DNA of 47,605 bases from Pedosphaera sp. (GTDB taxonomy: Bacteria; Verrucomicrobiota; Verrucomicrobiia; Limisphaerales; SIBE01), in assembly GCA_009695265.1 (NCBI GenBank), contig SIBE01000004.1:1-47605 (forward strand), in the 5' to 3' direction. The notes beneath the pieces were generated by a model. The model was not told the DNA's origin. It made no database searches and was given only the letters and a program-made list of their open reading frames with translations. Shown here one piece after another: positions 232 through 4,283 of the stretch (position 1 is its first letter; each line of letters opens with the position of its first letter). A program made the translations under genes and the position numbers.

Positions 232-567
232 CTATTTCTTAAAGGTCCTTACGTAGGCGACTAGTGCTTTTGTCTCTTCATCAGAGAGTTTGTCACCGAA
301 CGGCTTCATCTTTTCCTTGGTGCCTTCCTTCATCCCTTCTTTGATTTGCTTGAACATCTTATCGTCGGTGAGAGTCGCCAGATATTTTGAGTCCGTGAAG
401 TCCTTAACCTGGGCTTTCTTGCCGGCCTTGGTGTCTCCTTTGCCGTCCTTGCCATGACAAGCGACGCAGTGTTTATCCCAGTTCTCTTTGAGGTCGGCGG
501 CTTGGGCGGACCAAGCGACAAGACTAAGGCTGGCGACCGTTATGAGCAGTTTAATTTTCGATTTCAT
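232..567 (-). CDS. Small periplasmic monoheme c-type cytochrome (class I-like)
   Basis: Signal peptide (MKSKIKLLITVASLSLVAWSAQA) followed by HCVACHGKDGKGD (one CXXCH) and a C-terminal LSDEETKALVAYVRTF typical of cytochrome c. Confidence 0.9.
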   Translation of the reverse strand: MKSKIKLLITVASLSLVAWSAQAADLKENWDKHCVACHGKDGKGDTKAGKKAQVKDFTDSKYLATLTDDKMFKQIKEGMKEGTKEKMKPFGDKLSDEETKALVAYVRTFKK

Positions 568-647
568 ATTTTTCCGAGGTTGCAGGTTGTGTCGTTGTTG
601 TGAAGCATTCGCCCACGGACAGCTCAGAATCGGAATTGCATGCTCGA

Positions 648-2801
648 CTACACCAGGTGAGCGTCGTAGTTATTATTTCCTCCCGAGGTGACATCGCGGT
701 TGCTGAAGAAACCGTATTTAAGCGTCCAGAGGAGATTGGCCCGGATGCGACGAATGAGGCTTGCCGTAACGCCATGCTCTTCAGCACCGGCTCCATAGGG
801 CTGGCTGAACTGTGAGTTATCCTCGTAGTTGTTCGCCCGGTAATAGGAATACTGAGCTTGGAGATCGGTTTTATCTGTCAAGGCGTAACCGGTCAGAAAA
901 CTGGTATTCCAGTAATTATTCTTCGAGTTCAGCACAAGATTGGTGCTCCCCGTCATGCCGTCCGCCGGGGTGTCAGTTCGGTCCAACACGTAGTTGATGC
1001 TGCCTTGCAGATAGAGCCGGCTCAACGGACTCCATGTGACACTTTCGCTAAAGATGCGGCTCGTCATTTCAGCGCTCTTGGTCTCGGAAAGGAAATCACC
1101 CGTCGTTCTCACTGTTGAAAGCTGAAAATCATACCGGCTGACCAGAGTGAGGTTATTCAGCAGACGCCATGTGACTCTAAAATTAACATCGTCGGTCTCG
1201 AAATCATGGTCGGTCAAGAAGGCTGGATAACGATTCGCACTGGGAGGGGCATTGGTCGCGGGGAAATCGGCCCGGTGATCGTAGTCATTAGCTCGGATTT
1301 TATGATAATATTGGCCGCTGAAATTCAAACGTTTGAGAGGGTACCAATTCGCTCCTGCAATGTACTTTTGTGTGAAACGGGTTGAGTCCGTATCTCGGAA
1401 CAAATCGAGCGTTCCTGTGGTAGCTTCGGTTTCCCATTCCTTTAGGTTCCCATCACCCTCGAGCCATTCACCTCGAGTGTAGAATACCCAATTGGTCAGG
1501 CCGGTGTAACGGGCTTCAAGGCTTTCGGAAACATCCAAAAAGCCGCGTTCCCTGGTGTTGAGCAGCTCGTCTTGGATCGCCGCGAAAGTGGGCGAGGCCC
1601 CGAAATCCGTTTCAGTAAAACTGGCGACACCCTCTTGATTCTGCTTCTCCACTCGCAGCGCGGGGACGAGCGTCAAATGATCCCAGGGCGTGAGCATGAG
1701 ATTGATGTTCATCACATACTGTTTCACCTGTGATCCCCCGCTGAGAGCAAGAAAGCCTTCATCGCGTTGCTGCCTTCTGGCAAAGAGCGGATCGTAAACC
1801 GCCTCGTAACCACCTCCATAAATTCGGCTGCCAGAGATATCGGTATCCAATGTCGTGAACGAATAGCCGGTAGTAAAAAGAACTTTTTCGTTGAAACGAG
1901 TTTCGCTAAAAGCATGCACATTGAACATGTCCGCCACGACGCCTTCCCGTTGCGTGATATAGCGGTCAAGGGCCGGTTCGCCGGGACGACGATGAATGTT
2001 GCGCGAGTTGTCATTGTTTGAAATCTCATAACGCAGACCAAGTCCCAAGTCCGTGTTCCCAAACGTATGTTTAATATCACTCTCAAAAATATCCCGACGC
2101 TCATCGATATCCAAAAAGGTCGGAACAATCCCTCGACCTGGATTAGCCACCGTCACTCCGGTCAAATTGGAATCGCCCCAGGAGGTCGAGTCCTTTTTCC
2201 TATCTCGGAACAAATGCGAGTATTTGAAGCTCAACTCAGGCCGATCCGGAAGCGTCAGTCCGCCCTCGAAAAAAGCTTCACCTCGGTCGAGAGCAAAATC
2301 CTCGTCATAGAGAGAAAACCATTGACGGTTTTTTGGAAAGAAACCGCCGCTGCCATCGTACCAGGTGCGAAATTCCCGGTAGCCAGCGCGCAGGTAACCA
2401 ATGTCTGGATGGGACAAATCAAGCTTCATGGAATAATCGTGGTTGTCGAAGATGCCGCGCCCATCGAATTGAAGGAGACCTTTCTTGCCGATGTCCTGCT
2501 CGTAGTGGATATCTTCCACACCGCCAAAGGCACCCTTGGGGACACCCTGGCGATGCTGAAACTGGGCCTTGTCGCCGGTCACGAACTGAAACCCGGACGA
2601 AACAGTAAACCAATTCCGGTAATCGACGGAGCTCTTCTCGTCTGATTTTTCCAAGACGGGCTTCTTAGCGTCGGCCTCTTTGGCTTGAGCAGCTGGCTCG
2701 GCTGCTACAAGTGACCATTCCATCAGCCCGGCGCTGAAGATCAACACACTGGCCTTAACGATTGGCTGCAAGCTGCTGGATTGGAAAATGAGTGTTTTCA
2801 T
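648..2801 (-). CDS. Large outer-membrane beta-barrel, MtrB/PioB-like (porin-cytochrome conduit type)
   Basis: 717 aa with signal peptide, repeated amphipathic/aromatic beta-strand pattern, located directly between a multiheme and a monoheme cytochrome on the same strand. The stop at 648-650 is probably premature (see findings; extension to 624). Confidence 0.7.
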   Translation of the reverse strand: MKTLIFQSSSLQPIVKASVLIFSAGLMEWSLVAAEPAAQAKEADAKKPVLEKSDEKSSVDYRNWFTVSSGFQFVTGDKAQFQHRQGVPKGAFGGVEDIHYEQDIGKKGLLQFDGRGIFDNHDYSMKLDLSHPDIGYLRAGYREFRTWYDGSGGFFPKNRQWFSLYDEDFALDRGEAFFEGGLTLPDRPELSFKYSHLFRDRKKDSTSWGDSNLTGVTVANPGRGIVPTFLDIDERRDIFESDIKHTFGNTDLGLGLRYEISNNDNSRNIHRRPGEPALDRYITQREGVVADMFNVHAFSETRFNEKVLFTTGYSFTTLDTDISGSRIYGGGYEAVYDPLFARRQQRDEGFLALSGGSQVKQYVMNINLMLTPWDHLTLVPALRVEKQNQEGVASFTETDFGASPTFAAIQDELLNTRERGFLDVSESLEARYTGLTNWVFYTRGEWLEGDGNLKEWETEATTGTLDLFRDTDSTRFTQKYIAGANWYPLKRLNFSGQYYHKIRANDYDHRADFPATNAPPSANRYPAFLTDHDFETDDVNFRVTWRLLNNLTLVSRYDFQLSTVRTTGDFLSETKSAEMTSRIFSESVTWSPLSRLYLQGSINYVLDRTDTPADGMTGSTNLVLNSKNNYWNTSFLTGYALTDKTDLQAQYSYYRANNYEDNSQFSQPYGAGAEEHGVTASLIRRIRANLLWTLKYGFFSNRDVTSGGNNNYDAHLV

Positions 2802-2835
2802 CGAATCTCCTCATGAGTTGTTGAGTTATAGGTTG

Positions 2836-3654
2836 TTAAAATCTGAGCGATGAACCAACTTGAGAACCATGCACGGCTTCGTGGCAACCAGCCGACCAGC
2901 AGGTGCCCCTGGCTAAGCGGCTTGAGTGATCTTGGCCCCCAATGAAAATCTTGCCGGGTGCGGTTTGCTGCTGAAAATGGCACTTCAGACAGCGGTTTGC
3001 GTTGCGTTCCCGAAGCAGGCGGGGATTGACCGAGCCATGGACCTCATGGCAGGTGGTGCATCCTTCGCGCGTGGCTTCATGCTCGAAGACAAACGGCCCT
3101 CGTTGAGCGGTATGGCACTTCGCGCAGGTTTCATTCTCCACAGCCAAGGCAGTTCCGCCCCCCTTCACAGCCGGTCCTTTGTGAGGATTGTGGCAGTCGG
3201 CACAACTCACTTTTCCTTCCAACACCGGATGATGAGAAGGGAGATTGAATTGGCCTCGTTTATCAAGATGGCATTGGAAGCATGTCTCAGGCGATTGACG
3301 AGGATTGATGATCGTCTGATGAGCTCCACCCGTTTCATTATGAATGCTGCCAGGTCCATGGCAGGATTCACAACCTAGGTTGACGGCGTTTTCGCCTTCG
3401 GCTTTGAGAAGCGCATGCGTCGCGGTCTTGAAGCCCTTGGTGATGTTCTCGTGGCATTGCGCGCAATTATCCGATCCGACGAAATGGGCTCCGGGAATTT
3501 GCGGAGGGGCCATTACGACCCGGGTAACACTGACACAGGAAACGAGGATGGTCGCAGCGAGCATGCCGCAGAGGGCTACAAATGCCTTTGTGCGGGGAAT
3601 GCTGAAAAGTCCGGTAGCCTGCGTTGGTTGAGGGGAGTTAGGTTCAGGTTTCAT
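2836..3654 (-). CDS. Multiheme c-type cytochrome (DmsE/MtrA-like), probable lipoprotein
   Basis: Seven CXXCH motifs (CAQCH, CESCH, CFQCH, CADCH, CAKCH, CTTCH, CLKCH) plus one CX4CH (CWSAGCH); lipobox-like LVSC after the N-terminal hydrophobic segment. Confidence 0.9.
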   Translation of the reverse strand: MKPEPNSPQPTQATGLFSIPRTKAFVALCGMLAATILVSCVSVTRVVMAPPQIPGAHFVGSDNCAQCHENITKGFKTATHALLKAEGENAVNLGCESCHGPGSIHNETGGAHQTIINPRQSPETCFQCHLDKRGQFNLPSHHPVLEGKVSCADCHNPHKGPAVKGGGTALAVENETCAKCHTAQRGPFVFEHEATREGCTTCHEVHGSVNPRLLRERNANRCLKCHFQQQTAPGKIFIGGQDHSSRLARGTCWSAGCHEAVHGSQVGSSLRF

Positions 3655-3989: not shown

Positions 3990-4283
3990 ATGCAATCCGC
4001 GACCACCTCAAGTTCATCGGAACGGCCCGAACACCCAAATTCATCGGCCATTCCGCTGAGCCGAGTACGCGGCGGGTCATCGGTTCGAATTCGACAGCTG
4101 CCCGATTCTCCGAGCGTGACCCATCGTTTGCGGGAAATCGGCTTCTGCGAGGGCCAATGCATCAAGCTGCTCACCTGCGGCTCCAATATCATCTGCCAGG
4201 TATGTGATGCGCGACTCGCAATCAGAGCTCGTCTGGCCGAGACAATTCTGGTCGAACTCATCTCGCTCCGCAAAGCGGCGTGA
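3990..4283 (+). CDS. feoA: FeoA-domain protein (ferrous iron transport accessory)
   Basis: LPDSPSVTHRLREIGFCEGQCIKLLTCGSNIICQVCDARLAIRARLAETILVELI matches the FeoA pattern (RLRELGF.xG..v......d.l.v...g.rlalr...A..I.V). Confidence 0.75.
   Translation: MQSATTSSSSERPEHPNSSAIPLSRVRGGSSVRIRQLPDSPSVTHRLREIGFCEGQCIKLLTCGSNIICQVCDARLAIRARLAETILVELISLRKAA

Follow-up and report, generated by a model that had tools for sequence, protein, structure and literature searches.

A putative porin-cytochrome conduit built around an MtrA-related octaheme cytochrome in Pedosphaera sp. (Verrucomicrobiota)

Several systems that pair a multiheme cytochrome with an outer-membrane barrel resemble the locus described here. 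The closest in layout is MtoABD, with PmcA and ImoA, of Sideroxydans lithotrophicus ES-1 (PMC13390432, PMC5566968), where an MtrA-family decaheme cytochrome (MtoA), a porin and a small periplasmic monoheme cytochrome belong to one cluster and have an inner-membrane, quinone-linked partner; the Mto system is proposed to run inward. In MtrCAB of Shewanella, the wire cytochrome MtrA is likewise paired with a large barrel. The OmbB-OmaB-OmcB system of Geobacter, reported to have no sequence relationship to Mtr (PMC6344600), has an octaheme periplasmic cytochrome with a barrel. A further pair consists of GSU2203 (OmcK) and GSU2204, the genes for which both rise on hematite and magnetite (PMC4070692), GSU2204 being described as an MtrB/PioB-family barrel that contains CXXCH (PMC13188914). 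Within the Verrucomicrobia, He et al. (2017; PMC5615132) found eight-heme cytochromes next to porins for which 20 or more strands were predicted and proposed extracellular electron transfer (EET) to humic substances, and the available portion of that article states that no system homologous to those of Shewanella or Geobacter is present.

The window, a stretch of 47,605 nt, is the entire contig C113 of a 3.1 Mb assembly (G000) that is about 61% complete. The initial annotation had read three same-strand genes at 232-3654 as a lipoprotein octaheme cytochrome, an outer-membrane barrel of about 720 residues and a small monoheme c-type cytochrome, and each of these assignments held. The features of the locus are the following:

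2836-3654, minus strand: octaheme lipoprotein cytochrome c of the MtrA/DmsE/OmcK superfamily, 272 aa, from heme motifs and from matches to MtrA and NCBIfam models
648-2801, minus strand: large outer-membrane beta-barrel, heme-free, with signal peptide, 717 aa as read, from homologues and pairing with the octaheme gene
624-650, minus strand: in-frame TAG (648-650), then codons for SSMQFRF and TGA, at the barrel C-terminus, from translation and comparison with locus L042
232-567, minus strand: periplasmic class I monoheme cytochrome c, 111 aa, mature pI about 9.2 (PF13442, E 5.3e-14)
3990-4283, plus strand: FeoA-domain gene (PF04023, E 2.3e-12), a divergent neighbor outside the system

The genes are transcribed in the order octaheme, barrel and monoheme, with intergenic gaps of 34 nt and 80 nt, respectively. 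Seven CXXCH motifs and one CX4CH motif were identified in the octaheme, none in the barrel and one CXXCH in the small protein. The contig edge lies 231 nt beyond the monoheme gene, and sequence further downstream is absent from the window. We consider it likely that the three genes form an operon encoding a porin-cytochrome conduit, in which electrons would pass from the quinol pool to the monoheme, then to the octaheme inside the barrel and finally to an extracellular acceptor. This reading, which the initial annotation had put forward, is supported by the gene content, the relationship of the octaheme to MtrA and OmcK, the heme-free barrel that always accompanies it, the synteny of the pair, the conserved monoheme and the quinol-linked modules in the neighborhood in relatives. 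The initial annotation had also taken the adjacent feoA gene as a hint of iron redox chemistry. The gene itself is real, but among the loci examined its adjacency to the triad was otherwise found only in L042, from the same genus, and we therefore place it outside the system; as a neighbor that is not conserved, it is uninformative on function.

The octaheme cytochrome links the locus to described systems. It matched MtrA (PDB 6r2q chain A, E 1.6e-30; chain B of this entry is listed as "Structure of the Mtr complex," and the molecule name of chain A in the sequence file is odd), and the alignment covers both halves of the protein; hemes 1-2 correspond to the first two of MtrA, and hemes 3-8 to its hemes 5-10. 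Judged from this alignment, the octaheme corresponds to MtrA minus one two-heme unit. A cytochrome homologous to MtrA is present, as in MtrAB, MtoAB and PioAB, but it carries eight hemes rather than the ten of those systems. Among 64 homologues, the eight heme sites and 16 histidines were invariant or nearly so, a number of histidines sufficient for eight bis-histidine hemes. The last heme site is of the CX4CH type (CWSAGCH in the window) in 63 of the 64, and the lipobox cysteine (LVSC40), which together with the eight heme motifs bears out the annotation as an octaheme lipoprotein, was aligned in the same proportion (63/64). As far as the aligned homologues indicate, the lipobox, the eight sites, the CX4CH motif and the 16 histidines are constant marks of this family when compared with MtrA. 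An AlphaFold prediction of the octaheme from a five-sequence alignment was not interpretable (mean pLDDT 33.8).

The octaheme also scored against TIGR03508, the DmsE family (E 2.3e-46), which could suggest that the octaheme and barrel supply a reductase on the outer surface that acts on a soluble substrate such as DMSO, as in DmsE/DmsF-type systems. However, the score was below the curated cut-off of the family, and no terminal reductase gene was recognized in the neighborhoods examined, in which the heme-less neighbors were annotated in part. We regard this explanation as very improbable.

Comparison with the other cytochrome-porin pairs places the locus more precisely. Clusters of eight-heme cytochromes and porins are already known in the Verrucomicrobia, and the pair in the window, from the same phylum and likewise made up of a large porin and a cytochrome with eight hemes, fits the published description in PMC5615132. 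The available portion of that text does not mention a conserved monoheme, a CX4CH last heme, a lipobox or a fused type, and in contrast to its statement on non-homology, the octaheme is here clearly homologous to MtrA and OmcK. The octaheme matched the GSU2203 (OmcK) family (NF041028, E 1.3e-50), although the 172.5 bits of this match are below the curated cut-off of 325 and the GSU2203 family is decaheme. Unlike MtrA, the octaheme has two hemes fewer and a lipobox, and no MtrC gene was seen. Going by the published description, OmbB-OmaB-OmcB differs in that the octaheme in the window is Mtr-related and has no visible dodecaheme OmcB partner.

The identity of the barrel is harder to establish. 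No significant Pfam, NCBIfam or PDB match was obtained for the window barrel, and PDB sequence and profile searches gave nothing credible. The parallel with Mtr/Pio barrels drawn in the initial annotation was not borne out at this level: the MtrB/PioB profile PF11854 did not match the window barrel (the best value, 0.0064, occurred in 2 of 38 family members), and a sequence comparison with MtrB gave no significant match, nor could homology to the MtoABD porin be demonstrated. The GSU2204 family (NF041027) was matched by 4 of the 38 members (best E 3.4e-09), but not by the window barrel, which also differs from GSU2204 in having no CXXCH; the one match that was located, to the C-terminal barrel stretch of L064, reached 17.3 of 350 bits and was thus below the cut-off. 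A search for a plasmid homologue found none. An AlphaFold model from a five-sequence alignment was not interpretable (mean pLDDT 35.6) because the alignment was too shallow, and the number of peaks in hydrophobic alternation (32, compared with 21 ± 3.4 in shuffles) is too noisy a measure to give a strand number.

We also considered an identity of the barrel that the initial annotation had named as evidence against a conduit, namely an unrelated uptake porin or a TonB receptor whose gene lies beside the cytochrome genes by chance. A Foldseek search with the low-confidence model returned only large outer-membrane barrels of many sorts, among which TonB receptors scored above MtrB, although such a model cannot discriminate between them, and a few of the 38 family members matched generic porin models weakly. 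On the other hand, TonB plug or receptor domains were absent from the families matched by these 38 members at E up to 1, the pairing with the octaheme is invariant and mirrored by the split in the cytochrome tree, as described below, and a heme domain is fused to the barrel in paralogues. We find this explanation scarcely credible. On the searches made, the barrel is not provably MtrB/PioB and does not appear to be a TonB receptor.

Conservation of the octaheme-barrel pair, for which a synteny search had been suggested, was pronounced. Homologues of the barrel were found in 99 of 146 relatives and of the cytochrome in 113, and the pair is spread across the order and therefore not due to chance; in a phylum-wide sample, 18 of 289 genomes matched, including that of the window. 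We tabulated loci of the window type (type A) and of a paralogous type (type B), with the near-duplicate A loci L044 and L070 counted once. In all 43 A loci and all 19 B loci, the octaheme gene immediately precedes that of the barrel, such that a barrel gene and a periplasmic multiheme cytochrome gene are conserved as a unit, as in porin-cytochrome systems. In the cytochrome tree, the sequences paired with A and B barrels separate cleanly, with one change compared with 17 in shuffles, as expected of partners without swapping. One A and one B locus are present in the genome of the window, the latter on another contig (C35, L002). Two loci depart from these patterns. In L086 (G002:C171, 1297-1563), from the same genus, the octaheme adjoins the monoheme and the barrel between them is missing, by deletion or as an assembly artefact, and L065 (G065:C139) represents a third variant, with a cytochrome that has eight regular CXXCH motifs and a heme-free barrel 24% identical to that in the window.

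The barrel copy in the window has an unusual end. Its frame stops at TAG (648-650), where L042, a same-genus relative with a 96% identical barrel, has TAC and continues ...AHLVYSSMQFRF. The codons past the TAG in the window still read SSMQFRF followed by TGA, and a single-base change thus removes the last eight residues relative to L042. A C-terminal aromatic residue is the usual outer-membrane assembly signal, and the C-terminal residue is aromatic in nearly all A-type relatives. The TAG is compatible with a sequencing error as well as with a genuine nonsense mutation late in the gene, and this barrel copy may be non-functional because the codon truncates it. Synonymous differences from L042 outnumber nonsynonymous ones in all three genes, and the excess in the barrel (58 synonymous and 37 nonsynonymous-codon differences) indicates that the gene has been under constraint.

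The third gene of the triad separates the two types of loci. Of the A loci, 41 extend for 600 nt or more downstream of the barrel. A homologue of the monoheme was located no further than 600 nt past the barrel in 24 of them and anywhere downstream in 28; 14 of the 17 loci without an adjacent monoheme have a 9-heme cytochrome nearby. The B loci with room (n = 18) contained no separate monoheme gene, and every one of the 19 B barrels carries a single heme site close to its N-terminus, within a fused domain of the PSCyt1 type; PF07635 matched the B barrel of this genome with an E-value of 1.6e-15 and 8 members among the 38 scanned. The difference between types in the separate monoheme has a Fisher p of 8e-6, which is only a guide because related loci are not independent. 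In some monohemes of one family (L076, L079, L092, L093), KKP replaces MKP, which holds the probable methionine ligand of the heme. A small monoheme beside a conduit has a precedent in MtoABD, and the nearest described pair with a CXXCH in the barrel itself is that of GSU2204, which in this respect resembles the B-type fusion.

The monoheme and the PSCyt1 domain share a general type without being close homologues: their profiles align over only 19 columns, around the heme site, and the exchange is therefore one of type and not of orthologues. We infer that the monoheme in A loci and the PSCyt1 domain in B loci provide one role, periplasmic electron entry, in two ways. At somewhat less than even confidence, we suggest that the Verrucomicrobia run two parallel conduits on one octaheme-barrel core, with either a free monoheme (A) or a PSCyt1 domain fused to the barrel N-terminus (B). 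If true, the periplasmic mouth of the conduit is where the monoheme docks, and the fusion could serve to map the docking site. No description of this alternation was found in the literature searched, which covered the text of mainly open-access papers; the alternation may be the newer part of our findings.

The direction of electron flow can be considered in the light of the genes that follow the monoheme in relatives. These encode a NapC/NrfH-like membrane protein with 6 hemes, a protein that combines 11 hemes with a membrane part of the cytochrome-b561 type, or a module of 4-heme, FeS and NrfD proteins. Homologues of the 6-heme and 11-heme proteins were searched for in the genome of the window and not found, which is weak evidence because the genome is incomplete. 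A module with a 4-heme protein, a twin-arginine FeS protein and NrfD is present on a contig separate from the triad (C54, L136; 8778-11657), and its FeS and NrfD proteins share 76-85% identity with their counterparts after the monoheme in L045, L072, L077, L078 and L095. Another contig (C96, L137) carries apparent genes for alternative complex III with those for an oxidase behind them, which implies aerobic respiration too, and anaerobic EET is therefore not the only respiration of this bacterium.

A conduit that runs inward, from Fe(II) or another extracellular donor to the octaheme, the monoheme and the respiratory chain, as proposed for MtoABD, would agree with the layout of a multiheme cytochrome, a porin and a small monoheme with no extracellular decaheme, and with the alternative complex III and oxidase genes. 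However, the NapC/NrfH-like, NrfD-type and 11-heme/cytochrome-b modules that adjoin the operons of relatives are usually quinol-oxidizing, although the reversibility of such quinol modules has been discussed for ImoA (PMC13390432). We consider inward flow unlikely, and electrons probably flow outward.

In the outward conduit that we favor, the octaheme lipoprotein would be anchored to the periplasmic side of the outer membrane, its hemes forming a wire within the large barrel, and the monoheme would act as a dedicated soluble periplasmic carrier. Electrons would enter from a quinol dehydrogenase of the inner membrane, for which the 4-heme/FeS/NrfD module is the probable candidate in this genome, and travel via the monoheme to the periplasmic end of the octaheme. 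From the last heme they would go to acceptors outside the cell, perhaps humic quinones or Fe(III), either directly or through extracellular cytochromes with genes at another site; no such gene is seen here, the contig being cut off. Points against a conduit are the barrel without an MtrB/PioB match, the unusable models, the lack of an extracellular cytochrome gene in view, the A loci without an adjacent monoheme (17/41), the truncated barrel in the window and the alternative complex III and oxidase genes.

Our findings support a widespread capacity for EET in the Verrucomicrobia, which are abundant in soils and lakes and are not known for this process. They tie the verrucomicrobial conduit to the MtrA/OmcK superfamily and outline a testable electron path from the quinol pool to the outside of the cell. 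The fused and unfused versions of the monoheme represent a natural experiment on the contact between periplasmic carriers and conduits of the outer membrane.
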